From Vulgatibacter incomptus (GTDB lineage: Bacteria; Myxococcota; Myxococcia; Myxococcales; Vulgatibacteraceae), in the NCBI RefSeq assembly GCF_001263175.1, contig NZ_CP012332.1, positions 1,981,501 to 2,045,500 on the forward strand: 64,000 nt of DNA, read 5' to 3'. Position 1 is the stretch's first letter; each line of letters begins with the position of its first letter. Shown here piece after piece: positions 1-54,015 of this stretch. Below the pieces are notes generated by a model, which saw only the letters and a list, made by a program, of their open reading frames with translations, searched no databases and had not been told where the DNA came from. The position numbers and the translations under genes are program-made.

Positions 1-361
1 CCATCATCGTCTGGAAGTCGCCGCGGGCCCGCTTGGGGTTGAGGGCGTCGTCGGTGATGGCCCGGTAGGTCGAGGGCGCACCCACCGACTGGCCCCAGAT
101 CACCACGCCGAGTTGGAGGAACTTCGAGACGTCGTAGCCCGCCTCGAGACCGAAGAGGCTGCCGACGCCGGACGGCGCGCCCTCCCCCGGAAGGTTGAAG
201 TAGTAGACCGCCCCGAAGCTGGAGCCGACCCAGGGTCCGCGCTCGACCTCACGGTAGGTGAGGCCGGGGCGATCGCCCTGCACCTGCGCGTGGGCAGGGA
301 TGGCGACCGCAATCGCAGACAACGAGCCCAGGCAGGCCGCCAGGGCGAGCGAAAGACGCAT
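1..361 (-). CDS. Partial outer-membrane beta-barrel protein, CglE-like (C-terminus off the window)
   Basis: The frame is open from an ATG at 361 to the left edge, giving about 120 residues. A signal peptide (MRLSLALAACLGSLSAIAVA, then an AHA-type cleavage region) is followed by RPGLTYREVERGPW and alternating aromatic/glycine strands (SSFGAVYYF, LFGLEAGYDV) typical of a small outer-membrane barrel. GGAGGAG lies about 8 bases before the ATG. The mature N-terminus reminds me of CglE, a gliding motility barrel of Myxococcus xanthus, which would fit the glt cluster elsewhere in the window. That name is from memory of the family and not certain. The 3' end is missing, so length cannot be compared. 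Confidence 0.6.
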   Translation of the reverse strand, partial: MRLSLALAACLGSLSAIAVAIPAHAQVQGDRPGLTYREVERGPWVGSSFGAVYYFNLPGEGAPSGVGSLFGLEAGYDVSKFLQLGVVIWGQSVGAPSTYRAITDDALNPKRARGDFQTMM

Positions 362-411
362 TCGGCTCTCCTCCGTCAGATCCGAAAGGTGAAAAGCTAC
401 CACAGTGTCGG

Positions 412-528
412 GGGGTCGTGAAGAAATCACGACCCCTCGCGGAGCCGAAGGCGGAGCCACGGAAAGGCGCGATCGCGCGAAGCGCGGCTGAAGATGTCGG
501 GCCCGCTTCGGCGGGACCGATATCTTCA
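412..528 (-). repeat. Structured intergenic repeat, copy 1 (inverted relative to the others)
   Basis: Read on the minus strand it has the family order. Hairpin A (TGAAGATATCGG paired with CCCGACATCTTCA) is followed by hairpin B (GCGCTTCGCGC type), then CTTTCCGTGGCTCCGCCTTCGGCTCCGC in two blocks. It ends with hairpin C, a perfect 10-bp stem (412-421 with 427-436) around a TTTCT loop. It fills the gap between the barrel gene start and the rhomboid stop. Both flanking genes are on the minus strand. Confidence 0.75.
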
Positions 529-18476: not shown

Positions 18477-18722
18477 TCAGGCCGCGGAGGCGGCCTTGTG
18501 GCTCTTGATCAGGTTCTTGACCGTGACGGTCGGAACCGCGCCGTTCTTGAGCCACTTCTCGAGCTTGACGTCGTCGAAGCTGACCTTCGGGCCGGCCGGG
18601 TCGTAGGAGCCGACCTGCTCCAGGAACTTCCCGTCGCGGGGGCTCCGCGAGTCGGTCGCGATGATGTGGTAGAAGGGCGCCTTCTTCGCGCCGGCGCGCG
18701 CAAGCCGCAGGTGGACCGCCAT
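18477..18722 (-). CDS. rpsP: 30S ribosomal protein S16
   Basis: The 81 residues begin MAVHLRLARAGAKKAPFYHI and continue ATDSRSPRDGKFLEQVGSYDP, the S16 signature, ending in an Ala/Lys-rich tail. The start ATG 18722 has GAGGGAAG just before it. It is the first gene of the operon, with a leader of roughly 95 bases behind the promoter at 18824-18853. Confidence 0.98.
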   Translation of the reverse strand: MAVHLRLARAGAKKAPFYHIIATDSRSPRDGKFLEQVGSYDPAGPKVSFDDVKLEKWLKNGAVPTVTVKNLIKSHKAASAA

Positions 18723-38558: not shown

Positions 38559-41500
38559 CTAGATCCGCTCGAGGCGCGAGAGCTTCAGGCACCGATCGAG
38601 CCAGAGGTTGGCGATCTTCTCCTGCACGCCGTTCGCGCGGAGACGCGACGCCAGGAACGGGAAGTCGACCTCGTCGAGCTTCTGATCCTGGTTCATGCAG
38701 GTGAAGACGATCCGCTCCTTGCCGTCCGGCCCTACCTGGCGCTGGAGGCACTGGGCGCAGATCTCCTTCATCATGCACTGCATCGGCGAGTTGATGGAGC
38801 CGATGGCCTCGTGGGTCTCCTTGAGGTATGGCGCGAGCGCGCCCTTCCGCAGGGCCTTCACGGCGGCCATCATCCGGTCGGAGCCGATGGCGATGATCCG
38901 ATCGATGTCGGTCATGGGCACCAGCGACTCGCCGAGCTCGCCGCGGGTGTAGGCCATCATCGCCTCGCAGATGTTGCCGACGAAGGACCGATCCTGCGGC
39001 CGGCGCGGCGCGATCGCGGGCTCGCGATCGGTGGCCCAGATCACCTGGTCGGTGGCGGCCTCGATCTCGTCCTGCTTGAAGACGTCGTCCGGGTTCCGGT
39101 AGCCGGCGAAGTAGAGCACCCGGTTGCCGTTCTCCTTGAGCGCCTTGGCGATGGAGAAGAGCACTGCGTTGCCGAGGCCGCCGCCGGCCAGGAGCACGCT
39201 CTCGCCGGAGGGGATCTCGGTGGGGGCGCCGGTGGGTCCCATGCAGACCACCTCTTCGCCCGGGCGGAGCGCGGCCACGAGGCGCGAGGAACCGCCCATC
39301 TCGAGGACGATCAAAGACAGGAGGCCCTTCTCCTTGTCGACCCACGCGCCCGTGAGGGCGAGGCCCTCGGTGAGGAGCCGGGTCCCGTCGACGACGGGCG
39401 CGCGGCTCTCGAAGGCCTGGAGCCGGTAGAACTGGCCGGGGTTGAAGTGCTCGGCGGCGAGGGGCGCCTTCACCACCACCTCGACGATGGTCGGCGTGAG
39501 CCGGCGCACCTCGACGACCTTCGCGCGCAGCGCCTCGTCGAGGCGCGAGCGGAAGCTCTCCCAGGCGTGATCCCGCAGCGGCTGGTCCTCGGCCCGAAGG
39601 CCCGCGACCTCGTCCTCGAAGAGGCCGGCCACGAAGACGTGCCCGTCCTTGGCGGAGGCCATCGCCTTCACCACCGAACCCGCGTACTGGGGGTGGTTGT
39701 CGCCGTAGAACGACACGCAGCGTGTCTTGTCCGGAGACAGGTACGAGGTGAAGAAGCCGGCGTCCTGCGAGAGGTCCCGGTGGGCCTCCGCCTCTGCGAG
39801 CTCGATGGTGCCGTCGGCGAGCCGTTTCGCGCTGTAGCCCTGGAAGTACTGGCCCCAGCGATCGAGGCGGAACGAGCCTTCGTATTCCCGCTCGTAGGTG
39901 ACGTTGGGCGAGGTGCCCGCCGCGACGCAGACGGTCCGGGCGGGGAGCTCGACGAGCTCACCGGAGGCGAGCCACTTGCCGTCGACGAGCTTCTGCCTCT
40001 CGAAGATCACGGAGCGGACCGCGCCCTGGTCGTCGGAGACGGCCTCCTTCGGGTCCATGTACTCGACGAAGTGGATGCCTTCCTCGAGGCCCTTCTCCAC
40101 CTCCTCGTGGTTGAGGCGGTAGGCGGGGGCGTCCTGCATGCGCTTGCGGTAGACGAGGCTGACCCCGCCCCATTGCTGCACCAGGCCCGCGAAGTTGGGC
40201 TCCTCGCCGGCGGCCCGCGCCCGCACCCTCTCGGCCCGTACGGCGCGGCCGTGCTCGAGGAACTCGGCGAGGACCTCCCGCTCCTCCGCGTCGAAGACCT
40301 TCTCGGCGAGGACGCCGAGCTCGGCCTGGAGCTTCTCCCAGCGGTCGAGGGTCTTCTCCACCTGGATCGGGTAGTAGGCCGCAAGCTCGGTGGCGGTGTC
40401 GACGCCGGTGAGGCCGCCGCCGATCACGAGCGCCGGCAGGCGCACCTGCAGCGACGCCATGGAGTCGCGCTTGAAGGCGCCGGAGAGCTGGAGCGCCATG
40501 AGGAAATCGGACGCCTGGCGGATACCGCGCAGGAGGCCGTTCTTCATCCGCACCAGCGTCGGACGCCCGGCGCCCGCCGCGATCGCCACGTGGTCGAAGC
40601 CGTAACCCCAGGCGTCGTCCAGCGTGAGCGTGCCGCCGAAGCGCACGCCGCCGTAGGCCGCGAAGCCCCTGCGACGGGCGAGGTTCAGGTAGAGCGCCGT
40701 GAGGAAGTTCTTGTCCCAGCGGACGGTGATTCCGTACTCGGACACACCGCCGAAGCCGTTCACGACGCGCTGGTCGAGCTCGTCGCGGAGCTCCTCGAAG
40801 TCGCGGATCGGCGCGTCCAGGAAGCGCTCGGGGAGCGGTTCGACCTTGAGCCCCTCCACCGCCACCACGCCGAAGCCCTCGTTGAGGAGGTGATGCGCCA
40901 GCGTGTAGCCGGCGGGGCCAAGGCCCACCACCAGCACCTTCTTGCCGTTGTGCGGCAGCGCATACGGACGGCGCAGATTCACCGGATTCCAGCGGGTGAG
41001 CAGCGACCAGATCTCGTAGCCCCAGGGCATCGAGAGCACGTCCCGCAGGTTCGAGGTCTCGACCAGCGGGATGTTCACCGGCTCCTGCGTCTGGAAGATG
41101 CAGCCCTTCATGCAGTCGTTGCAGATCCGGTGGCCGGTGCCCGGCGACATCGGATTGTTGATCGACACCATCGCCAGGGCCGCGATGGAGTCGCCCCGCG
41201 CCTTGAGGACGTGCCCCTCGGAGATGTGCTCCTCGAGCGGGCAGCCGTGCAGGTCGATGGCGAGGGAGTTCTTCTTGAAGCCGCCGGCCTTGTCGTGGAA
41301 GCCCTTGGAGCAGGAGTCCTTCCCGCGCTCGTGGCAGAGCAGGCAGTAGTCGACCTCGGAGCGGACCTGCCTCGAGGTGGCGCCGCCGTCCGTGAGGCGG
41401 AAGCCGTCCCGGCGCCGCAGCTCGTGGGAGGCGGACACCTCCGGGATCAGCGGGAGCGGGCGCTTCACGTGCACCAGCTCCTCGTAGGTGGTCTTCTTGG

Positions 41501-42278
41501 GCAGCTTGTAGCTGGACCAGCCGCGGATCTGCTCCTTCCCCTCGGGGTGGAGCGAGCGCGCGAAGCACCAGCGATCCAGGAGGGTCAGCGCGTTGCGGAC
41601 GAGCTGGCCGTCGCCCTCGATGCCGTCCACGTCGGCGCCGCCCTCGACGAGACCGCCCAGGAGCCCGCTCGCCTTCGCCGCTTCACGCAGCGCGGCGCAC
41701 CGTTCGGCGAAGGCCGCCGGGAGCTGATCCGCCGTGGGAGCCGGCCGCCGGTCGTAGAGCTTCTGCAGGTCGAGGAGCTCGCAGATCGGGAGCGAGAGCG
41801 CGCGCTCGGCGTCCTGCGCCTCGCCGATGCCCGGCGCCAGGAAGCCGAGGAGCGCCGCCGCGGCAGCGTCGAGGGCGGGAAATTCCGCCGCCTCGGGCCG
41901 GTCGGGGGCGCCGCGTCGGAAGACGCGCTTCACCATGAACTCGTTCTTGAAGCGGAAGACCGGGCCTTCGGCGCCCGCCGCCTCGCGCTGCTCACGCCGC
42001 TGGTCTTCGACGCCGAAGAGCCGGGCCACGAAGGAGCCCACGTGCTCTGCGACCTCGATCAGGAGATCCGAGGCGCCGGGCGCCTGATCGCCGTTGGCCG
42101 AGAGCCGGATGGCGTCGAAGCGGGCCGCGAGCTCGGGCGCGTTGTGGACGAGCAGGGCGAGGAAGGCGCGGTGGAGCCGCGCGAGTCCCGCAGGCTCGTG
42201 GAGGTCGGAGTATGCAAAGCCCGGAATGCCCAGCGTGGGGATCCGGGAGTCGTCACGTCGAGCAACCGGGGATGTCAT
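38559..42278 (-). CDS. Large FAD/NAD(P) oxidoreductase: NfnB/GltD-like plus NfnA/FNR-like fusion
   Basis: 1,239 residues from ATG 42278. The first 300 residues are unrecognised. A cysteine-rich region follows (Cys312, 315, 323, 346, 386, 389, 393; CLLCHERGKDSC and CNDCMKGC), as in the Fe-S domain before GltD/NfnB flavoproteins. Then come the FAD motif VLVVGLGPAGYTLA (449-461) and a second Rossmann site LVIGGGLTGVDTATE. The last third is an FNR/PyrK-like module (FNPGQFYRLQ, VLLAGGGLGNAVLF) with a Cys set (MQCMMKEICAQC). It probably passes electrons between NAD(P)H and ferredoxin or another carrier. The exact reaction is unknown. Confidence 0.85.
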   Translation of the reverse strand: MTSPVARRDDSRIPTLGIPGFAYSDLHEPAGLARLHRAFLALLVHNAPELAARFDAIRLSANGDQAPGASDLLIEVAEHVGSFVARLFGVEDQRREQREAAGAEGPVFRFKNEFMVKRVFRRGAPDRPEAAEFPALDAAAAALLGFLAPGIGEAQDAERALSLPICELLDLQKLYDRRPAPTADQLPAAFAERCAALREAAKASGLLGGLVEGGADVDGIEGDGQLVRNALTLLDRWCFARSLHPEGKEQIRGWSSYKLPKKTTYEELVHVKRPLPLIPEVSASHELRRRDGFRLTDGGATSRQVRSEVDYCLLCHERGKDSCSKGFHDKAGGFKKNSLAIDLHGCPLEEHISEGHVLKARGDSIAALAMVSINNPMSPGTGHRICNDCMKGCIFQTQEPVNIPLVETSNLRDVLSMPWGYEIWSLLTRWNPVNLRRPYALPHNGKKVLVVGLGPAGYTLAHHLLNEGFGVVAVEGLKVEPLPERFLDAPIRDFEELRDELDQRVVNGFGGVSEYGITVRWDKNFLTALYLNLARRRGFAAYGGVRFGGTLTLDDAWGYGFDHVAIAAGAGRPTLVRMKNGLLRGIRQASDFLMALQLSGAFKRDSMASLQVRLPALVIGGGLTGVDTATELAAYYPIQVEKTLDRWEKLQAELGVLAEKVFDAEEREVLAEFLEHGRAVRAERVRARAAGEEPNFAGLVQQWGGVSLVYRKRMQDAPAYRLNHEEVEKGLEEGIHFVEYMDPKEAVSDDQGAVRSVIFERQKLVDGKWLASGELVELPARTVCVAAGTSPNVTYEREYEGSFRLDRWGQYFQGYSAKRLADGTIELAEAEAHRDLSQDAGFFTSYLSPDKTRCVSFYGDNHPQYAGSVVKAMASAKDGHVFVAGLFEDEVAGLRAEDQPLRDHAWESFRSRLDEALRAKVVEVRRLTPTIVEVVVKAPLAAEHFNPGQFYRLQAFESRAPVVDGTRLLTEGLALTGAWVDKEKGLLSLIVLEMGGSSRLVAALRPGEEVVCMGPTGAPTEIPSGESVLLAGGGLGNAVLFSIAKALKENGNRVLYFAGYRNPDDVFKQDEIEAATDQVIWATDREPAIAPRRPQDRSFVGNICEAMMAYTRGELGESLVPMTDIDRIIAIGSDRMMAAVKALRKGALAPYLKETHEAIGSINSPMQCMMKEICAQCLQRQVGPDGKERIVFTCMNQDQKLDEVDFPFLASRLRANGVQEKIANLWLDRCLKLSRLERI

Positions 42279-42367
42279 CGAATCTCTTGGTCCGGGCGAA
42301 AAAAAGCGCCTCACGCCGGCAGGGAAATCGGCCCAAAGGGCTGCGAAATTCCCCGCCGCGTCGGCGG

Positions 42368-42429: not shown

Positions 42430-44454
42430 TCAGGTGGGAGGCGAGAAGACGAAGGGATAGGTCACCGATGCGGTGCCCCCGCCCTTCGGTGGCGGGAACT
42501 GCCAGCTCCGGAACCGGGCCGCGATGCAGCTCTCCACCTGCGCGTTGCCCATGGTGCTGTTCGTGACCTGGGCGAAGGGCACCGTGCCGTCCCCGGAGAT
42601 CGTGAACTTCACCTGGATGCGGCCGGAGAGCTTCGGGTTCCGGATCAGCTCGTTCTCGTAGCAGTAGCGGATCTGCGCGCGGTGGGAGTTGATCACCCGG
42701 CGGACGAGCTCCTTGTCGTAGCCGACCACGATGGCGGAGCTGGAGTCGATGGTGACGTCGCTGCCGCCCTTCTGCCCGAGGCCGCCCATGCCCTTGCCGT
42801 AGTCGCCGAGGCCGCCACCGCGGCCCTTGGTGCCCACGTCGCCGACGCCGATGGTGGTCCCCTGCCCGCCTCCGCCGAGGCCCGTGCCCTTGAGGCCCAG
42901 GCCACCGAAGCCGTGGGCGTCGCCGACGCCCTGGCCGGTGATCCCGCCGATCGCGCCCTTGAGGTCGCCGCCCAGGCCGGCCTTGCCGACGATGGTCGAG
43001 AGGCCTGCGTTGCTGCCGCTTCCCAGCATCGCGAGGAGGCCCTGGTTCTTCACGACCTCCTTGTCGTCCGGCTTGATGGCGCGGGGCGCCGAGCGCGTGT
43101 TCCGCTCGGGCGCGTCCTGCTTGCCCATCTTCCCCTCATCGCCGCGGGCGCGCTCCGCCTTCTCGCCCGAGTCGGGCGCCTTGAGCTTCAGCTTCTCGAG
43201 GAAGGGGTTCTGGCGCTGCTCGGGGGGCGTGAGGAGCAGCTTGGTCAGGCGGGCCTGGTTGGAGAAGAGGTCGTCGGCGGTGACGTCCACGTCGCGCGCG
43301 CTGTTCGCGAAGCCGATGATGCTCGCGCCGAAGATGGCGAACACGGCCAGCAAGAGATTCACGAACTTGTAGTCAATCTGCGCCGACCACTGGGTCGGGA
43401 GGGGCTTCACCTTCGGACGGAAGCAGAGCTCGGCGCGGATGTTCCCGAGGTCGACCCAGGCGGCGCCGTCCTCCGGGAGCTCGACCTCCATCAGCCCTTC
43501 GCCTGCCGGCCGCGCCTTGCGGGCACGGGCGAGATCGGACAGGCGCTCCACCTTGCCGTCGCGGAGGAGCTCGCCGTCCATCGAGGAATCGAAGCGCACG
43601 TACCACGCGCCATCGACCCGGCGGGCCAGGGGGAACGGATTGGTCGAGAGGTTCGGAGCCTCCAGAGCGAAGGTCGCGTCTTTCGCGTCGCCGACGGAGA
43701 CGGTCTCGTCCCCGTCGAAGCTGCCGACGGCGAGCTGCTTGTCGCCCCAGAAGAACCGGGCGTCCAGGGCCAGGGCCCTCGAGCCCGCACCCTTGGGCCA
43801 GGGATTCGGCATCGACGAGGTGCGCGCCGCTGCCCCGCCCTTCGGCCAGGGGTTCGGCGTCGACGACGGTCGGGCTGTCGGCGGCGTCGGTTCCGGACCG
43901 GAAGCGCGGACGGCGGCGCGGAGCGGGATCCCGGCGGACGCAGGAATCGTCTGCCCATCCGAGCCCGTGCCGGCGCCAAGCGGAATCGGGGCCTCCTCCG
44001 CGACGCCAGCCGGCGCCGGCATCGCGACGGCCTCAGGCGCCCCGACGGGCGTGGCGGCCGGCGGTGCCTCAGCGATCGCGGGAGCCAGGGCCACCGGCAC
44101 GGCCGCGGTGGCCACGGCGAGGCTGCCGATGGCGACCGCATTGGCAGCGGGCTGCTCCGAGCAGACCTCGAGCTCGATCCGCGTGTCGCCCACGAAGATC
44201 GAGTCGCCGGACGAGAGCGCCGCCTTGCTCACCCGCTTCCCGTTGACGAACGTGCCCTCCACCGAGCCCATGTCGATCACCGAGAAGCCGTCGGCGGCCA
44301 CCTCGATCACCGCGTGGACGCGAGAGACGCGCTCGTCGTCGAGCGAGAGGTGCGCCGTCGCCAGCCGGCCGATCTTGATGATGTCGCGGTGGAATTCCTT
44401 GGTCGCGACGAGCTCCCCGCCCCGGAAGACGCGCAGCTTGAGTGGAATCGCCAT
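42430..44454 (-). CDS. gltG: Gliding motility protein GltG/PglI: FHA domain, membrane span, TonB-like C-terminus
   Basis: 674 residues from ATG 44454 (GGAGGGAAAC before it). An N-terminal FHA domain (about 1-95; IIKIGRLATAHLSLDDERVS, GTFVNG) should bind a phosphothreonine partner in the cytoplasm. A Pro/Ala-rich stretch with PNPWPKG twice (200-222) follows. One transmembrane helix lies at 364-383, then a charged and Gly-rich periplasmic region (to about 570). It ends in the AgmX/PglI C-terminal domain (YDKELVRRVINSHRAQIRYC, TISGDGTV). In M. xanthus GltG connects the inner-membrane motor to the periplasmic and outer-membrane Glt parts. Confidence 0.9.
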   Translation of the reverse strand: MAIPLKLRVFRGGELVATKEFHRDIIKIGRLATAHLSLDDERVSRVHAVIEVAADGFSVIDMGSVEGTFVNGKRVSKAALSSGDSIFVGDTRIELEVCSEQPAANAVAIGSLAVATAAVPVALAPAIAEAPPAATPVGAPEAVAMPAPAGVAEEAPIPLGAGTGSDGQTIPASAGIPLRAAVRASGPEPTPPTARPSSTPNPWPKGGAAARTSSMPNPWPKGAGSRALALDARFFWGDKQLAVGSFDGDETVSVGDAKDATFALEAPNLSTNPFPLARRVDGAWYVRFDSSMDGELLRDGKVERLSDLARARKARPAGEGLMEVELPEDGAAWVDLGNIRAELCFRPKVKPLPTQWSAQIDYKFVNLLLAVFAIFGASIIGFANSARDVDVTADDLFSNQARLTKLLLTPPEQRQNPFLEKLKLKAPDSGEKAERARGDEGKMGKQDAPERNTRSAPRAIKPDDKEVVKNQGLLAMLGSGSNAGLSTIVGKAGLGGDLKGAIGGITGQGVGDAHGFGGLGLKGTGLGGGGQGTTIGVGDVGTKGRGGGLGDYGKGMGGLGQKGGSDVTIDSSSAIVVGYDKELVRRVINSHRAQIRYCYENELIRNPKLSGRIQVKFTISGDGTVPFAQVTNSTMGNAQVESCIAARFRSWQFPPPKGGGTASVTYPFVFSPPT

Positions 44455-44485
44455 GTTTCCCTCCAAAGGAGCGGCAGCGCCGCTC

Positions 44486-44731
44486 CTAGAGCTCTCCCAC
44501 CGACTCCAGCACCTGGTCACGGAAGGTGTCACGAACCTTCACCAGGTTGGAGTGGGTGACCTTCCCCTTCGCGTCGACGAGCTCGCCGTCGGGCCGGGTG
44601 AGGTCACCCTGGATGGTGTCGTCCTCGAAATTGATCTCGGTGTGCTTCTCGTACTCCACCCGGTCCTCGGCTGAGGCCGCGAGGGGCGAGAGGAGCAGAA
44701 GGCCTGCGATCAGGCCGCCCATGCGCTTCAT
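44486..44731 (-). CDS. gltF: Small periplasmic gliding protein GltF-like
   Basis: 81 residues from ATG 44731 (GGAGG five bases before). A signal peptide (MKRMGGLIAGLLLLSPLAASA) is followed by a short acidic protein (EDRVEYEKHTEINFEDDTIQ, VRDTFRDQVLESVGEL). An in-frame ATG at 44776 would spoil the signal peptide. I assign GltF (also called CglF, as I recall) mainly from size, export signal and position between gltE and gltG, the same place as in the M. xanthus gltDEFG order. Confidence 0.75.
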   Translation of the reverse strand: MKRMGGLIAGLLLLSPLAASAEDRVEYEKHTEINFEDDTIQGDLTRPDGELVDAKGKVTHSNLVKVRDTFRDQVLESVGEL

Positions 44732-44778
44732 GGAACCTCCGGCGCGTCGCGCCGACGTCTCGTGGATCCCATCCATGA

Positions 44779-46215
44779 CTAGAAATCGTCCTCGGGCTCG
44801 TCGGGATCGACGTCCGCCCTGACCGCCGGAGCGGCGGAGTTCGCCTGCGATGCCCGGGCGGGCTCGGCCTGCCGCTTCTCGACGACCGGGGCCGGGGCCG
44901 GGGCCGACCGCTCCTCGGCGGCGCCGTTCGCCGACGCGCCGCTCACCGCCTCCTGGACCGTCGCCTTCGCCTCGGCCTCCGCCCCGGCGCGGGCCTCCTC
45001 CTCCGCCGCCTTCATCTCGGCCTTCAGGTGCACGAGCTGCTCACACTCGCGCATGAGCCCGAACACGGGATGCCCGCCCGGCAGGTTGACCGCCGACCCC
45101 GAGATGAAGCGCCGGTAGAACGCCAGGGCCTCCTCCGGCTGATCCTTCGACCGGTGGAGGATCACCGCGATCGAGAACGCCGGCCTTGCGTCGTTCGAGT
45201 CGAGCTCCTGCGCCTTCGTGAAGGCCGCGAGCGCCTCGTCGATCTTTCCGGATCCGTAGAGCGCCGTGCCGAGGTCGAGCTGCGCGGCGGCGTTTTTCGG
45301 CTCCGCCTGGACGATCCCTTCGTAGAGAACTGCCGCCTCCTGGTAGCTGCGCCGCTCCAGCGAATCGCTGGCGAGCCGCGCCCGGGCCGGCAGGAAGTCG
45401 GCCTGGACCTCCAGCGCGCGCCGGTACTGGGCCAGGGCCCGCTCCTTCTCCCCCTTCTTCTCGAGGAGCTGGCCCATGAGCCAGGGCATCTCCGGATCCG
45501 TGGCGTCGAGCTCCGCCGCGCGCCGCGCGATGAGCCGCGCCACGTCGAGCTGGCCTCGCTCGGTGTGGACCCGAACGAGGACCTTCTGGGCCGTCAGGTT
45601 CTTCGGATCCCGCAGCAGCGCCTCCCGCGCGAGCTCCCTGGCCCGCTCGAGATCACCGGCGGCAAGGAAGAGCGAGGCGAGGCGCGCCCTTGCGCCGGCG
45701 TGCTCCGGGTACACCCGGAGGATGGCCTTGTATTGCTCGGCAGCCGCCTGCGGATCCCCGCCGCGCTCCAACAGGAGGCCGAGGTTCTCGCGAGCGACGA
45801 AGAGCGAGGGCTTGGCCTCGAGCGCCGCGGCGTAGCGCTTCTTCGCGGCGTCGGGCTTTCCTCGCCGCTCGTCGATCACGCCCAGGTTGAAATGCGCCTC
45901 GGCGAGGGTGTCGTCCTCGTCGAGCACGGCCTCGAACTTGCGGGCGAGGAGGTCCCAGTCCACGACCTTGAGCGTCTTGCCCTCGTCGTAGGCGCGGACC
46001 GCGTCGTCGAACTTGCGCTTCGCCGCCGGCGAGCGCTCCTCGCCGCCCTTGGCCAGGCCATCGCCGACACCAGCCTTCGAGCCCGAAGTCGTCGAGCAGG
46101 CGCCCGTGCCCAACAGCGCGGCCGCCGCGAGGATCGTCGCCGCGAGCCTCGCGGCGCTCCCGCCGCCCGGTCGCCGGGCGAGCGACGCCTTGGAGGCCGC
46201 CTCTTCGCGGATCAT
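44779..46215 (-). CDS. gltE: TPR lipoprotein GltE/AglT
   Basis: 478 residues. From ATG 46215 an arginine-containing signal leads to a lipobox-like LLGTGAC (Cys40). About seven TPR units follow (roughly 75-370; FNLGVIDERRGKPDAAKKRY and AQYRRALEVQADFLPARARL are examples). The C-terminal tail is Ala/Glu/Pro-rich and ends in acidic DPDEPEDDF. AglT/GltE is an envelope TPR protein needed for adventurous gliding in M. xanthus. The start lies 4 bases after the gltD stop. An ATG at 46239 would overlap gltD. Confidence 0.85.
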   Translation of the reverse strand: MIREEAASKASLARRPGGGSAARLAATILAAAALLGTGACSTTSGSKAGVGDGLAKGGEERSPAAKRKFDDAVRAYDEGKTLKVVDWDLLARKFEAVLDEDDTLAEAHFNLGVIDERRGKPDAAKKRYAAALEAKPSLFVARENLGLLLERGGDPQAAAEQYKAILRVYPEHAGARARLASLFLAAGDLERARELAREALLRDPKNLTAQKVLVRVHTERGQLDVARLIARRAAELDATDPEMPWLMGQLLEKKGEKERALAQYRRALEVQADFLPARARLASDSLERRSYQEAAVLYEGIVQAEPKNAAAQLDLGTALYGSGKIDEALAAFTKAQELDSNDARPAFSIAVILHRSKDQPEEALAFYRRFISGSAVNLPGGHPVFGLMRECEQLVHLKAEMKAAEEEARAGAEAEAKATVQEAVSGASANGAAEERSAPAPAPVVEKRQAEPARASQANSAAPAVRADVDPDEPEDDF

Positions 46216-46219
46216 GGTC

Positions 46220-49200
46220 CTAGAGCAGATCGTCGTCATCGAGGTCGTCCTGGTTCTGCCTGGGGGCGAGCGGGGCCTCCTTCTCGCCAGAGATCAGCGA
46301 AGGTCGGCTGGAGCGCTGGGGAGCCACGTCCGGCTCCGGGCTCCTGCTCGGGACTCGCTCCTCCACCACCGCGGGCACCTTGGCGTCCTTGGGAGGAGGA
46401 GGCGGAATCGGCTGGATCGAGGCGAGGATCCCGTTGCCGCGCGCCTGGGTCGACGCCGGGACCACCCGGGCGATCTCGCCGAGGAGCGGCGGGAAGCGAT
46501 GCGGCGCCCACTGCTCGAGGAGCCCGCGGGCCTCGGCCGAGCACTCGTTGTCCTGCTCGAGCTCGCGGCTCTTCTCCACGGCGGTGGCCAGCGCTTCCTG
46601 CGCCTTCTCTTCGATCGGATTCGCCTGCTCCGCGAGGGCGGAGCGGTAGAGGTCGACCTGCTCTTCCGTGAGGCCCCTCGGGATCGGAGCGTCATAGAGG
46701 GTCTGCGCGAACTCGTGGTAGGCGAGGCCGATCCGGGTGAGGCCGCAGAGCGCGGGCCCGGGGATCTTGAATCCCACCGTCTCCGTGTAGCGCTTCTGCA
46801 CCTCGAGGAGGCCCGCGGCCTTGGCCTTGAGACGCTCCGCCATCGCCTGCTCCGGGAGGCGCAGCTTGATCTTCGCGAAGTCCTTCCAGAGCGGCTCCGC
46901 GAGCAGGTAGTGCGCCGTCGCGACGCCCTCCATGGCGTTCCCCGGCTCGGTGGACAGCGAGCGCTGCACGGCCTTGGGGAGGATCCGGTAGGTGTTCCAG
47001 ATCTTCTCGTAGGTCTTCTGCGCCTGCCATTTCTGGCCGCGCGCGTCCTGGATCTTCGCGATCCGGTACCAGGCGAGGAGCTTCTTGCCGGGATTCCGGC
47101 CGTACTCCTTCTCGTAGAGCTCGAGCTGGCGGACCGCCTGCGGATACGCGCCCGCCCTCTCGTGGAGGTCGGCGATCGACAGGAAGATTGCCTCGGCGTC
47201 GGCGGCCTTCGGCCAGAGGTCCAGGTACTTCTCCCGATTCTTCTGCGCCCGGCGGAAGTCGCCGAGGGCCTCGCGGAAGATGCCGGCGTTGAAGAGCGCG
47301 GCCTTCGCCTTCTCCTCCTCGAACTCGGGTCCAGGCTTCGGCGGCGGCTGCGCCTTCGCTCCACGCCTTGCCGGCGCCGGCGGGCGCTGGCGCTCGTAGC
47401 CTGCGGCGTAGGCCTCGTACCCGGTCGCCGCGCGATCGAGCTCGCCGATCTCCTCGAAGACCGAGGCGTTCAGGAAGATCGCCATCGGCGTCATCTTCGA
47501 CTGCGGGTAGTCCCGCACCAGGCGGTCGCGGGTGGCGAGGGCGTCCTCGATGCGGCCGGCCTTGTAGTAGTCCACCGAGGCGTTGAAGAGGGCCTCGCCT
47601 GCGAGCTCGCTCCGGGGCCAGGCGGAGACGAAGGAGAGGTAGCGATCGCCGGCGTCTCCGTATCGCTCCTCCTTCTCGAGGAGCGCCACGAGCTTGAACG
47701 AGTTCCTCTCGATGATCCGCTCGAGCTCGAGCTTGAACGGGCCCTTGGCGAGGCGCGGCTCCGAGTGGAAGCGCTTCGCCCACTCGTCGATCTTCTCGTA
47801 GTCGCCCAGCAGGTTGAACACGTCGAGGACGAGGTTCGCGCTGTACTCCGCGAGCTCGTTCTCCGGGTGCTCCAGCGCGATCTCCGAGAACCGGGCCACC
47901 GCGCCTTCGAAGTGGTTGTAGCGGTACTGGATCTGGGCGGCCCTGTAGGCCACCTCCACCCGCTTCTTCCCGTTCGGGACGTACTTCAGGTAGTTCTCGC
48001 AGGCCGTGAGGAGAGCCTGCTTGGGCGCGGGGATCGGCAGCGGGTTCTTCGGATCCGCGCCTTCGGGCAGGGGCTCGTCACCGAGCTTCTTCACCACCTC
48101 GTCGTTCGAGAAGATCGCACCTTCGAGGGCCTGCACCATCCACTTGCCCGGCGCCTCGCCCTTCTCGATCCGCTCGACGTCCAGCTGCACCACCTTCGAA
48201 TAGGTGTCCGCCGCGAACTCGTAGTTGTGGAGCTGATCGTAGAGTAGCTCCGCGTGGTAGAAGCGCAGGCTGTAGGCCTTCTCCGAGTCCGGGAAGATCG
48301 CGAAGTAGTCGCCGTAGACCTCGCTGGCGAAGGCATACGTCTCTTCGTCGCGGGTCTTCTTCCCCTCGTTGTGCCAGACCACCGCGAGGTTCGAGAGGGT
48401 CCGCTCGCTGAGCTTGCGGGCGGAATCGAGGGTCGCCCGATCCTCGTCGGTCTGAATCGCCCCGCTCTGCTCGACGTCCTGGAAGATCTTCACCAGCAGG
48501 CGAGCCTGCTCCACCGTGATCCGCTTGTTGCCGACGCGCATCACCGCGTCGACGATCCGGGCCTGGAAGAACGGCGCCTCCGGGGAGAGCGGCCTCTCGC
48601 GGATCAGCTGCCGGTAGACGAGCACCGCCTCCTTGTCCTTGCCGTCGTCGTAGTAGAGGCCGGCGAGGCTCTTGAGCATCGACCACCAGTTCTCGTCGCC
48701 GCCCACCTGGAGGAAGGCCGGCTTCGCCTGGGTGGGATCGCCGTAGCGCGAGTAGGCGAGCACGTAGTCCTTGCGCGCCTCTCGGATCAGGGCGGTCTTG
48801 TTGTCGCCGGCGACGTTGCTCGCCAGCTCGCCATAGAAGACGGTCGCCTTGAACTTGTCGGCCGCGGCGGGGAAGTCGCCCAGGTTGTAGTGGCACCAGC
48901 CCTGCTTGTAGATTGCGAAGCCGTAGACCTTCGACTCGGTGAAGCTCGACGCCTTCACGTAGGCCTCGAGGGCCTTCTGGAGCATGTCGCGCTTGCCGTC
49001 CGAGTTGTTGAAGTACCATTCACCGTAGGCGAGATACGCGTCGGGGACGAACCGCGACTGGGGGAAGCGGGTGATCAACGCCTTGTAGGCGCCCAGCGCG
49101 TCCTGCTCCTTCCCCGATTCCCAGAGGTTGTGGCCGAGGTAGAAGAGGACCTCGTCGACCCGCGAATAATCGGGGAACTGCTGGATCAGCTCCTTGTACC

Positions 49201-49693
49201 GGGCGATCGCCGCGTCCTGGTACTGGTTGCTCTTGTCCTGGAAGGCCTTGCGATCCGCCTCCGCACCGGCGTCGCAACCCGGCTCCTTCGTCTCCTTGCA
49301 GCGCGCGACCCGATCGTCCTGCCGGTTGGCCTCGAAGAACCAGTAGCGCGACTCCTCCCACGAGAGCTCCGCCAGGCGGAAGAGGAGGTCGGGCTTCTCC
49401 TGGGAGTCCTCGTTGAGGTCGACCATCTGCTCGAGCGTCCTCATCAGCTCGGCGCGCTTGCCCTTGAGCTGGAGCTCGACGCTGAAGCGGAAGGTGTCGT
49501 AGCCGAGGTTCGGCCGCTCCTCCTCCGCCTTCTCCACCTTGGCCCGCGTGATGTCGCCGGCGAGCTCCACCGAGGGGCCGCCGGAGTCCGTCTTCCGGCC
49601 GAGATCGGGAGCCTTTCCACCGGTCGCCGCCATTGCCACGGCGGGGACGAGGGCCAGCACCCACGCGGCCGATCGCATCAGACGCATCCTCAT
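46220..49693 (-). CDS. gltD: Large TPR-rich periplasmic gliding protein GltD/AgmU
   Basis: 1,157 residues with a signal peptide (MRMRLMRSAAWVLALVPAVAMA) and tandem TPR/HAT-like helical repeats through most of the length (for example NLGYDTFRFSVELQLKGKRA, YLGHNLWESGKEQDALGAYK). The C-terminus is low-complexity, ending in QNQDDLDDDDLL. AgmU of M. xanthus has comparable size and repeat content and joins moving periplasmic complexes. The ATG overlaps the gltC stop (ATGA), showing tight coupling. Confidence 0.9.
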   Translation of the reverse strand: MRMRLMRSAAWVLALVPAVAMAATGGKAPDLGRKTDSGGPSVELAGDITRAKVEKAEEERPNLGYDTFRFSVELQLKGKRAELMRTLEQMVDLNEDSQEKPDLLFRLAELSWEESRYWFFEANRQDDRVARCKETKEPGCDAGAEADRKAFQDKSNQYQDAAIARYKELIQQFPDYSRVDEVLFYLGHNLWESGKEQDALGAYKALITRFPQSRFVPDAYLAYGEWYFNNSDGKRDMLQKALEAYVKASSFTESKVYGFAIYKQGWCHYNLGDFPAAADKFKATVFYGELASNVAGDNKTALIREARKDYVLAYSRYGDPTQAKPAFLQVGGDENWWSMLKSLAGLYYDDGKDKEAVLVYRQLIRERPLSPEAPFFQARIVDAVMRVGNKRITVEQARLLVKIFQDVEQSGAIQTDEDRATLDSARKLSERTLSNLAVVWHNEGKKTRDEETYAFASEVYGDYFAIFPDSEKAYSLRFYHAELLYDQLHNYEFAADTYSKVVQLDVERIEKGEAPGKWMVQALEGAIFSNDEVVKKLGDEPLPEGADPKNPLPIPAPKQALLTACENYLKYVPNGKKRVEVAYRAAQIQYRYNHFEGAVARFSEIALEHPENELAEYSANLVLDVFNLLGDYEKIDEWAKRFHSEPRLAKGPFKLELERIIERNSFKLVALLEKEERYGDAGDRYLSFVSAWPRSELAGEALFNASVDYYKAGRIEDALATRDRLVRDYPQSKMTPMAIFLNASVFEEIGELDRAATGYEAYAAGYERQRPPAPARRGAKAQPPPKPGPEFEEEKAKAALFNAGIFREALGDFRRAQKNREKYLDLWPKAADAEAIFLSIADLHERAGAYPQAVRQLELYEKEYGRNPGKKLLAWYRIAKIQDARGQKWQAQKTYEKIWNTYRILPKAVQRSLSTEPGNAMEGVATAHYLLAEPLWKDFAKIKLRLPEQAMAERLKAKAAGLLEVQKRYTETVGFKIPGPALCGLTRIGLAYHEFAQTLYDAPIPRGLTEEQVDLYRSALAEQANPIEEKAQEALATAVEKSRELEQDNECSAEARGLLEQWAPHRFPPLLGEIARVVPASTQARGNGILASIQPIPPPPPKDAKVPAVVEERVPSRSPEPDVAPQRSSRPSLISGEKEAPLAPRQNQDDLDDDDLL

Positions 49694-51528
49694 CTCCCCT
49701 TGCAGCCCTTGGTCAGGGTGTACTGGTAGGTGCCGAGCTCGTCGCGCCAGAACTCGCCCTCGTAGGGCCAGTACACGTGCTCGTCGTCCACCGCGGTGGA
49801 GTACTTGTAGTTCTCGATCGGGGAGACACGCTTGCCCTTGCTGAGCGACGCCTCGAGGACGTCCTTCTCGCTCGTGCCGATCTCCGCCTTGATCGCGAGG
49901 GCCCGGTAGTTGAGCGACGCGAGCTCCTTGCGCTCCTTCTCGAGCTTGCGCTTGGCGTAGAAGCCCGCCTTCCGCTGGAGCTCCACGCGCTGGGCGTCGA
50001 GGTCCGCGATCAGGCTCTTCGCGAGGCCGGAGAAGCGGAAGAGCTCCCGGCGCGAGGCGATCCCGTCCAGCTCGCCCTCGAGCTCGAGGATCGAGTCGTT
50101 CAGGTGCCGGAGCTCCTTGTCCGAGAGCGCGAGCTTAAGGATGCCCTGGAGCATCCGGTTCGTCTCTCCGCCCTTCTCGTCCTTCTGCAGGTCGGCGAGG
50201 ACGCCGTAGTAGTCCTGCGGCGTGGAGAACGGGCGGGCCAGGATCTTCTCGAGCTCCGCGTAGAGCGAGTAGTAGCGGGCCCGGAACTCCTCGACGATCC
50301 GGTTGGCCTCCGGGTAGCGGCAGTTCTCGTAGTAGATCACCGACTGGAGCACCATCGCCTCGGGGAAGTACTCGTCCCGGAAGAACGGCGACTGGAGCGT
50401 GATCATGTTCCCGAGGGCCTGCTCGTTCTCGCCGAGGCGGAAGTGGGCCCACGACGCCTCGTAGAGCGACTGGAGCCACTGCTCGCTGCCTCGGGCGATC
50501 CGGCTGTAATAGAAGGCCGCGAAGCGGTTCTGGCCGTGCTCGTAGTGGATGCGCGCGAGCTGCATCAGCGCCTGCTCACGGAGCTGGGTGTCGACGACGC
50601 CGCCCCTGCGCGGGTTCAGGGCGCGGACCACGTCCTTGAACGCCTCGAGTGCAGGCGTGAACTTCCCGTTCACGTAGAGCGTAAGGCCGTCGAGGTAGCG
50701 GGCCTTCGCGTTAAAGCGCGACCCCCGCGGCACCATCGCGAGGAGCCTGCGCGCCTCGTCGAAGCTCTCCTGCGCCTGCTGGAGGTGTCCGCGCTTCGCG
50801 GCCTCGTCCACGCCCTGAGCGGCGTCGAGCAGGGCCTTGCCGCGCACGAAGTTGTACTTGGCGAGGAGGTAGCGGTACTCGTCCCGGTACTTCTCAGGGA
50901 ACTCGACCCCGGCGAATCGGGCGATCTCGTCGAGGACCACCGTCTGGTTCGTCGCCTTGTGGGCGATGAAGAAGAGCCACTCGAGGCTCGTGGCGAAGTA
51001 CGGATGCGCTTCGCCGCGGTCCAGGATCCGCCGGAACACCGAGAGGGACGAGTGGTACATCCCCAGGCGGTAGAGCGACTTGCCCAGGAGGTACTCCGCC
51101 TGGGGGTGCTGATCCGCCGCGGTCGGGTCCTGGAGGATCTCGTGGAAACCGAGGGCCGCCGTCTCGAAGCTCTTCTCCTGGAAGAGCCTCATCGCGGCGT
51201 CGAGCTTCTGCCGGTCGGCGGTCTTGCCGGTGACGTCGAAGCCCTCGAACGAGAGCGTCGGCGGGGGCCTCGTAGGCAGGGCCTTCGGCTGGGCCGGCGC
51301 CTCCGGAGCGGCCTGCACCGGAGGTGCTGCGGGGGCCGACTTGCGCGGCGGCGGCGGCGGCGCGCGCCGCTTGGGCTGCTGCTTCGGCGGGGCGCGCCGG
51401 GCGGGCGCCGGCTTCTTGGAGTCCGAGTCGTCCGAGAGATCGAGGCCCTCGAACGAGATCTGGGCGTGCACCGCCAGGGGCGAGGCGACGAGGAGAACGG
51501 CGGCCATCGCCGCCAGGACGTTGCGCAT
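49690..51528 (-). CDS. gltC: Periplasmic TPR gliding protein GltC
   Basis: 612 residues from ATG 51528 (GGAG seven bases before); ATG 51540 is an alternative giving four more residues. A signal peptide (MRNVLAAMAAVLLVASPLAV) is followed by the short motif ISFEGLDLSDD, a Pro/Ala/Lys-rich linker and a repeat of that motif (LSFEGFDVTG). TPR-like helices (about 110-400) and a coiled-coil-like tail (about 440-560) complete it. The order barrel-barrel-TPR matches M. xanthus gltA/gltB/gltC. The frame is open upstream through an alternate frame of gltB because of the gltA frameshift. Confidence 0.88.
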   Translation of the reverse strand: MRNVLAAMAAVLLVASPLAVHAQISFEGLDLSDDSDSKKPAPARRAPPKQQPKRRAPPPPPRKSAPAAPPVQAAPEAPAQPKALPTRPPPTLSFEGFDVTGKTADRQKLDAAMRLFQEKSFETAALGFHEILQDPTAADQHPQAEYLLGKSLYRLGMYHSSLSVFRRILDRGEAHPYFATSLEWLFFIAHKATNQTVVLDEIARFAGVEFPEKYRDEYRYLLAKYNFVRGKALLDAAQGVDEAAKRGHLQQAQESFDEARRLLAMVPRGSRFNAKARYLDGLTLYVNGKFTPALEAFKDVVRALNPRRGGVVDTQLREQALMQLARIHYEHGQNRFAAFYYSRIARGSEQWLQSLYEASWAHFRLGENEQALGNMITLQSPFFRDEYFPEAMVLQSVIYYENCRYPEANRIVEEFRARYYSLYAELEKILARPFSTPQDYYGVLADLQKDEKGGETNRMLQGILKLALSDKELRHLNDSILELEGELDGIASRRELFRFSGLAKSLIADLDAQRVELQRKAGFYAKRKLEKERKELASLNYRALAIKAEIGTSEKDVLEASLSKGKRVSPIENYKYSTAVDDEHVYWPYEGEFWRDELGTYQYTLTKGCKGR

Positions 51529-51545
51529 GAAGGGCTCCATGGGGC

Positions 51546-52325
51546 TCACGCGCCTCCCTGCCCAAGGAAGAAGGAGAGGCCGACGCCGAAGAGGAGCTGG
51601 TTCTGCGTGCTCTGCTCCTTCCCGGTCTTCCCCTGGATCTCCACGCGGTAGATCACGTCGCGGATCTCGAGGCGGAGGGCGGCCCAGCGCGACAGCACGT
51701 AGCGCTGACCGACGCCGAGGTGGATCTCCGGCAGGAACTTGGCCTCCACCTCGCTTCCGCCGGGGGGCGCGACCTTCGACTCGATCACGCCGGCACCTGC
51801 GAGGAAGTAGGTGTCGAAGTGGAGGACGCTCTCGGCCAGCACCGAGATCTTCCCGTAGAGCGGCGCCCACGATGCGTCGACGCCGGCGAGGATGCCGAAG
51901 TCTCCAGGTGCCCGGACCAGCTCCTCCTTGGTGGGCAGGCGGCAGCCCTGGCCGCTCGAGTCGCAGCGGGAGACCGCACCCGACGGGCTGCTCGTGGCCC
52001 AGGACGCGTTGAGGCCCAGCATCCACTTCTCGTCGAGGTGGTAGGCGTAGCGCAGCCCGAAGAGCGTCTTCGAGTAGAAGGGATCGCCCAGCGAGATCGC
52101 GATCGTCGGGGAGATCTCGTGGCGGCCGTCCTTCAGGAAGAGGTGGCCCGAGACCGGACGGATCCGCTCGTCGAGGTCGAGGTTCGTCTGCGGGGCGACG
52201 GCGTTCGACGCCTTGGCGTCCGCAGCCGCCTCCAGGGCGGCGTCGTCGTCGGCGCGGGCCGGCATGCCGAGGCCGCAGGCCAGCAGCACGAGGAGAACAG
52301 GGAAAAGGCGCACGGAGCGATGCAT
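51546..52325 (-). CDS. gltB: Outer-membrane beta-barrel gliding protein GltB
   Basis: 259 residues with a signal peptide ending near MPARA. The family segment IRPVSGHLFLKDGRHEISPT is followed by IAISLGDPFYSKTLFGLRYA and YHLDEKWMLGLNASWA; later strands include LGVGQRYVLSRWAALRLEIR, and the last strand is LLFGVGLSFFLGQGG. It is a paralog of gltA in the adjacent gene. The ATG shares a base with the expected gltA stop (TAATG), and gltC begins 5 to 17 bases after its stop. Confidence 0.85.
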   Translation of the reverse strand: MHRSVRLFPVLLVLLACGLGMPARADDDAALEAAADAKASNAVAPQTNLDLDERIRPVSGHLFLKDGRHEISPTIAISLGDPFYSKTLFGLRYAYHLDEKWMLGLNASWATSSPSGAVSRCDSSGQGCRLPTKEELVRAPGDFGILAGVDASWAPLYGKISVLAESVLHFDTYFLAGAGVIESKVAPPGGSEVEAKFLPEIHLGVGQRYVLSRWAALRLEIRDVIYRVEIQGKTGKEQSTQNQLLFGVGLSFFLGQGGA

Positions 52326-53169
52326 TACCGGGCCTCGTAGGAGAAGGAGGGGGGATCCAGAACGAGAGGCCGACGTTCAGCGTCAGCACCTTCTGGATCT
52401 CGGAGATCTGCCGGTCCTGGGGCCTGTCGGCGTAGAGGAGCTGCTTCACCCAGAACTGGAAGGCCATCCAGTCGGCCACCGCGAAGCGCTGTCCGACGCC
52501 GATGTCGACCGCCGGGTGCGCGCCGTCGCCCACCGGGTCGCCGGAGGTCTGGGACCACGCTGCGCCCACGCCCGTCATGAGGAAGAGGTCGTACTGGACG
52601 ATGGTGTTGAACCAGGAGAGCTTGCCGTAGATCGGCGTCCACACGAAGTCGAGGCCCGCGTTCCAGTCGAGCTTGGAGGAGAGAAGGAGCGACTTCAGCT
52701 CCCGCTTCGCGATCCGCACGCTGTCGGTCTGCGAGATGCCGAACTTCTCATAGTGGAGCGAGAGCGCGAGCGAGTCCGCCAGGTGGTAGCTCGCCGAGAT
52801 GCCGCCGCCGATCTTCGTATAGAACGCGTCGTTCAGCGACATCGCGAAGGTCGGCGCCACTTCGAGCCGCCCCTTCTTCAGGAAGTGCTTCCGCTGCACC
52901 GCCTTGACGCGATCGTCGACGACCGTCTCCGGCGCCGACTCGCGGATCCGGCCCCCCATCCGTTCGGCCAGCTCCTCCGCCGACACGGGCGGCGGCTGGC
53001 GGGGCGAGGCCGCCTCGTCGGCGCCATCGTCCGAGAGGTCGAGGCCGAGCTCCTGGGCGAGGGCCGGCGGGGCCATCACCAGGGCCAGGGCGAGCCCGAT
53101 CGAGCGGATGGCCGCCGTTCGGAAGCCGACTCCCCTTCCGCGGGGCGCAATCCGGGATTCCGTCTTCAT
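52325..53169 (-). CDS. gltA: Outer-membrane beta-barrel gliding protein GltA, frame-disrupted near the 3' end
   Basis: About 280 residues intended. A signal peptide ends near APPALA, then comes an ELGLDLSDD motif and the family block VQRKHFLKKGRLEVAPTFAM, SLNDAFYTKIGGGISASYHL. Later strands include VDIGVGQRFAVADWMAFQFW and LTLNVGLSFW. The minus-strand C tract at 52349-52354 has six Cs. With seven, the protein would end IPPSFSYEAR-stop at TAATG, coupled to gltB. As given, the frame misses this stop and runs on to the end of gltC (49690). This is a sequencing error or a true frameshift; only about the last eight residues differ. Confidence 0.8.
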
Positions 53170-53314
53170 CACTCCCCGCTCTCGCCGCCGCTGCGACACT
53201 CGTGCTGACTCTTCACCAGAGGGGTCCTCCGGCGGGCGGCTGGGGCGCCGGGGGGGCCTTGCCCCGCGGAAGCTCTGCCGTTCCTCGCCATAGTCCAAAA
53301 TCTTCAATGGCCGG

Positions 53315-53343
53315 ATGCTACAGCGTGGATCGCGGATGGGCAA
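53315..53343 (-). promoter_or_regulatory. Candidate promoter of the glt operon
   Basis: On the minus strand TTGCCC (53338-53343) and TAGCAT (53315-53320) are 17 bases apart, each matching consensus at 4 of 6. The implied leader to gltA is about 140 bases. The spacer to the divergent CglC-like gene is about 335 bases. No sigma-54 boxes were seen there. Confidence 0.4.
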
Positions 53344-53403
53344 GGTTCCTGACCGCTTCTCCACATCGGGTGCGAGCATGTCGCAGATTGCCTCACCGCG
53401 GAA

Positions 53404-53456
53404 TGAAGTCATCGCCCCAGTGCGGGAGCGATTCGCCTCTGGCTCGCGAAACGCGA
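53404..53456 (+). repeat. Degenerate remnant of the structured intergenic repeat
   Basis: TGAAGTCATCGCCCC, then GCGGGAGCGATTCGCCTC, match hairpin A of copy 3 with losses, and GGCTCGCGAAACGCGAA resembles a decayed hairpin B. The CTCCTTTCCG tail is missing. It lies between the glt promoter and the CglC-like gene. Confidence 0.4.
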
Positions 53457-53505
53457 ATCTTTCGGAATCTTGAGCTTGCCCCTGGAGCTGTGCTACCGCT
53501 TGGCC

Positions 53506-54015
53506 ATGCACCCTCGACTCTCGACCTCGATCCGCTGCGCTCTCGGTGGGCTCGCCGTGCTCCTCCTCTCCGCGGGCTCCTGCGTGGACACCGACATCGG
53601 CGCCCCCTGCCAGCTCCAGAAGGACCGCTTCGACGAGTCGCTCCCCGGTTGCCGCGGCGTGAGCCCCGACGACATCGCCCAGCACCCGGAGTGCTTCCAC
53701 CCGACCGCCGGTGAGCTGAACCAGGGTAAGGCGAAGGACTACATCTCCTTCGGCGCCGCCGAGTGCGACAACCTCACCTGTGTGCGTTCGAGGGGGGAGC
53801 CCGACCTCGCCAGCGAGACGGAGCCGAGCGGCTACTGCTCCGGCGAGTGCATCAACGACCAGGACTGCGCCTCGGAGAACGGCAAGTTCAGCTGCCGCGC
53901 CCTCGTCTTCGACGACGAGTTCCTGCACTACCTCGCCGACACGCTCTCGCCCGAGGAGTACAACCGGTACCTCGGCCGTCTCGAGAACTCGAAGTTCTGC
54001 ACCCGGGCGCAGTAG
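53506..54015 (+). CDS. Cysteine-rich lipoprotein, CglC/GltK-like
   Basis: About 169 residues from ATG 53506 (TTG 53500 or 53470 are possible). A signal peptide leads to LLSAGSC as lipobox. The mature part has about ten further cysteines (for example GAPCQLQKDR, LPGCRGVSP, GYCSGECINDQDCASENGKF) and is acidic. I assign a CglC-like outer-membrane lipoprotein of the gliding machinery because of its Cys pattern and its divergent position beside gltA. The name is a recollection of the family and should be verified. The start codon is uncertain. Confidence 0.65.
   Translation: MHPRLSTSIRCALGGLAVLLLSAGSCVDTDIGAPCQLQKDRFDESLPGCRGVSPDDIAQHPECFHPTAGELNQGKAKDYISFGAAECDNLTCVRSRGEPDLASETEPSGYCSGECINDQDCASENGKFSCRALVFDDEFLHYLADTLSPEEYNRYLGRLENSKFCTRAQ

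Follow-up and report, generated by a model that had tools for sequence, protein, structure and literature searches.

Overall, we believe that the locus described here very probably represents one part, cglC/gltBACDEFG, of an Agl/Glt gliding machine of the Myxococcus type, laid out in the gene order of the common ancestor of the Myxococcota. It lies in a window of 64,000 nucleotides, the whole stretch of DNA that was analysed (genome positions 1981501-2045500), in the complete 4,350,553-base genome of Vulgatibacter incomptus, a soil-dwelling relative of Myxococcus, where seven glt genes occupy the minus strand in a single run from 53169 to 42430 in window coordinates. At the same time, this locus is not the undivided ancestor itself: gltH-I-J is contiguous with gltG in most relatives, and here it is about 42 kb away.

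The run reads gltB-gltA-gltC-gltD-gltE-gltF-gltG, with cglC diverging from it. The cglC gene (gltK/agmO; 53506..54015, plus strand) encodes an outer-membrane lipoprotein whose lipobox, LLSAGSC, can be read in the translation, and which matches NF033754 (gliding_CglC) at 137 bits against a cut-off of 60. On the minus strand follow two outer-membrane beta-barrels, gltB (52325..53169) and gltA (51546..52325, adjoining gltC), which match TIGR04565 (OMP_myx_plus, cut-off 60) at 99.5 and 134 bits, respectively; gltC (49690..51540), a periplasmic or outer-membrane-associated TPR protein (NF033756 gliding_GltC, 919 bits, cut-off 450); gltD (agmU; 46220..49693), a large periplasmic TPR protein of 1157 aa; gltE (aglT; 44779..46215), a TPR lipoprotein (NF033758 gliding_GltE, 353 bits, cut-off 225); gltF (cglF; 44486..44776), a small secreted protein (NF033764 gliding_CglF, 110 bits, cut-off 90); and gltG (pglI; 42430..44454; NF033760 gliding_GltG, 892 bits, cut-off 650), whose product combines an FHA domain, a transmembrane segment and a TonB-like C-terminus (Pfam FHA and TonB_C). 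The next gene after gltG (38559-42314) was considered as a further member of the cluster and rejected, since it gave matches to oxidoreductases of the glutamate synthase subunit beta type.

These searches uphold the family assignments of the preliminary description, which had been made from the letters alone: CglC, GltC, GltE, CglF and GltG exceed the cut-offs of NCBIfam equivalog models, the equation of cglF with gltF resting on that match together with position, and GltA, GltB and GltD are identified by barrel or TPR models and by position. GltD has no dedicated model; its identity follows from its TPR content, from its place between gltC and gltE, and from its match to the gene holding the GltD place in those relatives that were compared, including the G1 copy of a family here called f2 (locus L067; 930 bits, 46% identity). 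The names of the two barrels had to be exchanged, because the order in M. xanthus is cglC, divergent from gltB-gltA-gltC (PMC4488436), and because, in most relatives, the best match of each barrel is the one of the same rank in the order, first with first and second with second.

The diverging lipoprotein gene and the seven genes with tight ends on one strand were likewise borne out. The junctions measure -1 base at B/A (out of frame), 5 at A/C, -4 at C/D, 4 at D/E, 2 at E/F and 31 at F/G, a range of -4 to +31 bases, and because the genes are packed so tightly gltB to gltG would probably form one transcript, starting in a control region that also serves cglC in the opposite direction. That region is the 336-base gap between the two (53170..53505), which would be expected to hold divergent promoters; a sigma-70 promoter scan of it gave none, and a terminator scan gave matches at chance level. 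In M. xanthus, divergent promoters of cglC and gltBAC are known, and gltBAC is one transcript (PMC4488436).

The same genome carries a second Glt/Nfs-like cluster at 1154734-1166051 (L050, L051), with the order barrel-barrel-C-D-E-G-H/CglE, and such paralogues are known in M. xanthus as well (PMC3169522), which raises the question of whether the cluster in the window might itself be a Glt-like paralogue, of the Nfs type (spore coat) or another, rather than a machine for gliding. We regard this as most improbable. Although the two clusters share the barrel-barrel-C-D-E-G order, the window proteins pass the gliding cut-offs and are not closer to Nfs than to Glt, with GltC, GltE and GltG at 919, 353 and 892 bits, whereas GltC (254 bits) and GltE (124 bits) of the second cluster both fall below theirs; CglC stands beside the window cluster and was not found beside the other, and the GltG-like gene of the latter is split between two frames. 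A spore-coat role for that second cluster would itself be odd, V. incomptus being reported not to sporulate.

Further parts of a gliding machine are present elsewhere in the genome. Besides GltC, GltE, GltF and GltG above their equivalog cut-offs, two barrels beside gltC with a divergent CglC, and the GltD TPR protein, we find GltH, GltI, GltJ and an AglRQS triad. The motor genes had been described as missing from the window; they do lie outside it, and an ExbB-ExbD-ExbD triad near genome positions 3990759-3992371, about 2 Mb from the glt locus, includes an AglR orthologue 69% identical to the f2 copy. A second triad is found at 2936262-2937760. The idea that the genome lacks gltH-J and the motor was rejected, the genes having been found wholly or, for gltH, in part outside the window. 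For the adhesin CglB, there is a near-full-length match at 2720392-2721543 (L107), which at 109 bits is below the cut-off of 200; its product is a candidate for a divergent CglB.

If the machine works as it does in M. xanthus, the AglRQS motor, which sits in the inner membrane and is driven by protons, would pull on GltG and GltJ, each of which would present an FHA or zinc-finger domain to the cytoplasm and a TonB-like tail to the periplasm, and the force would pass through the periplasmic TPR proteins GltC, GltD and GltE, together with GltF, to the outer-membrane barrels GltA, GltB and GltH and the lipoprotein CglC. The sequence shows what the genes are, how they are ordered and that they are conserved; that they are co-transcribed, that their products assemble into a single machine and that V. 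incomptus glides are inferred.

One feature of the locus complicates this picture. As judged by reading frame and by comparison of the C-terminus with relatives, the deposited sequence of gltB is broken: it has no in-frame stop, and at a run of six C near 52350 (52330-52370, minus strand) its frame shifts after ...GLSFWIPP, in comparison with a relative (L052) in which the protein ends ...LSFWLPTSFSYGAR followed by a stop. As deposited, the frame is open over about 1159 codons, up to the gltC stop. The letters of the TAATG junction noted in the preliminary description are present, but the deposited gltB frame, off by one at the C run, misses that TAA. Because the relative has an in-frame stop, the simplest reading is that the break is probably a one-base indel of sequencing or assembly. 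It is barely credible that the run is a real programmed slippage site, at which most products would end at the normal stop and the unshifted frame could give a long GltB-to-GltC readthrough protein; if it were, slippage would couple the dosage of barrel and TPR protein.

The same break enters a broader doubt, namely whether the gliding homologues of V. incomptus are present without the machine being functional for gliding, either as a relic or for some other task in the envelope. The broken gltB frame, the sub-threshold CglB match and the report that the organism neither aggregates nor forms fruiting bodies or spores (PMC11821767) all lend this some weight, and we consider it a possibility to be taken seriously, if a rather unlikely one. 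Against it, the frames of the other genes are open and full-length, the genome holds gltH-J and AglRQS, and the assembly contains a further frame break, in the GltG-like gene of the paralogous cluster, which suggests sequencing indels rather than decay. A working gliding machine remains the reading that we prefer.

The seeming absence of gltH-I-J from the locus is a consequence of the window edge. The preliminary description had placed all three genes outside the window and a separate CglE-like barrel at its left edge; that barrel does match the CglE model (NF033755 gliding_CglE, 158 bits, cut-off 70), but it is not separate from gltH. It is gltH (cglE; genome 1981220-1981960, minus strand), with its 5' part at window positions 1..460 and the rest to the left of the window, the identity resting on the model match and on the fact that gltI and gltJ follow it. 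Only the latter two are wholly outside, just past the edge and on the same strand as gltH and gltG: gltI (genome 1969610-1981006, minus strand), encoding a 3798-aa GltI-like TPR protein between gltH and gltJ, and gltJ (1966092-1968098, minus strand), which matches across the full model at 547 bits, over the cut-off. Between gltI and gltJ lies a gene for a Gly-rich lipoprotein (L048:6298-7743, minus strand), which has a match in the sister genus (L072) and is absent from the M. xanthus G1 table.

The distance between gltG and gltJ is 55.9 kb here, versus 7.7-21 kb in 24 other genomes that have both on the same contig. In the sister genus (genome G127), gltH does not occur within 12 kb after gltG, the genes beside gltG correspond to those between 32059 and 18504 of this window, and gltI-J stands beside ffh, as it does here. 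Since the two genera share both the gltH-less flank of gltG and the ffh-linked gltI-J, the break between gltG and gltH would predate their split, and we read it as derived in this family, the Vulgatibacteraceae, and common to both genera examined. Two genomes of another family, f9 (L074, L076), have other genes after gltG and show no gltH within 11-14 kb; either gltG and gltH came apart on more than one occasion, or gltH has been lost or has diverged in f9. The genes ffh, rpsP, rimM, trmD and rplS often travel together. Here ffh (genome 1962019-1963308, plus strand) is some 37 kb from rpsP (window 18504-18722, minus strand), with gltJ-I-H and other genes between them; this separation suggests an inversion or transposition, which may be linked to the break between gltG and gltH.

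To place the order of the locus in the phylum, GltC, GltG and GltJ were located in 155 genomes, and 77 of these were tabulated by hand: the genomes outside f2 with a listed GltC match, and those f2 genomes that have few contigs or represent a genus. Genomes with gltC and gltG on different contigs were taken as informative only where the contig goes on beyond gltC. Outside f2, the two genes are linked in all 35 genomes that carry them on one contig, 4.9-12.6 kb apart, on the same strand and with gltC first; in f2, which we take to be the Myxococcaceae, they are more than 500 kb apart in 17 of 17 such genomes. The arrangement in M. xanthus itself was taken from published papers, which give separate clusters, and the fused order, named in the preliminary description as a finding that would overturn it if met with in M. 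xanthus, was seen neither there nor among the f2 genomes compared here. The notion that the gene order of this locus is unusual had to be dropped, the same linkage being present in those 35 genomes and in many of the loci fetched.

Gene order was read in 40 of these fetched loci. The run cglC-B-A-C-D-E-F-G-H(-I) is contiguous in most loci of f3, the family that takes in Anaeromyxobacter, where one locus (L090) stops at gltG because its contig ends; similar runs occur in f5, f4, f10 and families of other classes, and a Bdellovibrionaceae contig reads barrel-C-D up to its end. Past gltC, gltD was not found in f7 and f9, where the contig continues for at least 9 kb, or in the f2 loci used, which extend for about 2 to 11 kb beyond it. 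A tree was computed from 34 GltC rows (IQ-TREE, PMSF mixture); it covers this one gene, and it contains some long rows and some poorly supported deep branches. In it, all rows with the split fall on one side of a branch with 97/99 support that is present in 96% of bootstrap trees, and the separation of gltC from gltD needs one change. The separation of gltBAC from gltD-J is accordingly placed by this tree as a single event in the ancestor of f2, f7 and f9.

Together, the joined order in outgroup classes and in the paralogous cluster and the one-change GltC tree argue that the A-to-G linkage is ancestral and the split arrangement of M. xanthus derived, a reading that we consider well supported. 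The opposite history, in which gltBAC and gltD-J were separate in the ancestor and were joined secondarily in the Vulgatibacteraceae and independently elsewhere, is very unlikely. Linkage can be gained, and gltH-J has evidently moved in this family, but one split would have to be replaced by many independent fusions that all arrived at one order on one strand; these would be needed in f3, f5, f4 and f10 as well as in no fewer than 10 families of other classes. The same order is also seen in the paralogous cluster of this genome and in the barrel-C-D contig of the Bdellovibrionaceae. The proposal in the preliminary description of an ancestral undivided arrangement therefore stands in part. With an ancestral A-to-G linkage, retained in Anaeromyxobacteraceae, other Myxococcia, other classes and, partly, Bdellovibrionaceae, it fits well, and gltC and gltD are adjacent here, with a 4-base overlap; the adjacency of gltG and gltH-I-J that an undivided gltA-J set would show is missing, with about 42 kb in between.

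The locus can thus be set beside the systems already described. It shares with the G1 (gltD-J) and G2 (cglC/gltBAC) clusters of M. xanthus the gene families, their internal order and a divergent cglC beside gltBAC (PMC3169522, PMC4488436). In genomes of the M. xanthus type, however, megabases lie between the two clusters, and gltG-H-I-J is contiguous, whereas here gltC and gltD are adjacent and it is gltG and gltH that are separated. The Anaeromyxobacter cluster has the joined order: on the chromosome of A. oryzae (L095, NZ_AP025591), with cglC divergent and B-A-C-D-E-F-G in one run, the whole set from cglC to gltI (K-B-A-C-D-E-F-G-H-I) is contiguous, and Anaeromyxobacter, unlike the Vulgatibacteraceae, keeps gltH-I beside gltG and gltJ within about 21 kb. 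The core complex of Bdellovibrio, Bd0828-0838, likewise holds homologues of gltA-G in one region, although homologues of gltH, I, J and K were not reported there (Luciano et al. 2011).

The linkage is not special to this genome, and its novelty is low: homologues of G1 and G2 were found grouped on the chromosomes of four Anaeromyxobacter in 2011, and ancient linkages were then proposed to have been lost (Luciano et al. 2011, PMC3169522). The locus described here adds a further instance and supports the view of these authors that such linkages were lost during the evolution of the gliding machine. The mechanism of gliding is left unchanged by this result, but the older arrangement would now be settled: the split clusters of M. 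xanthus would derive from one event, and the machine would have been inherited as one linked set. In practice, this is also an aid to annotation, since glt genes that seem to be missing from a genome may be found by their neighbourhood.
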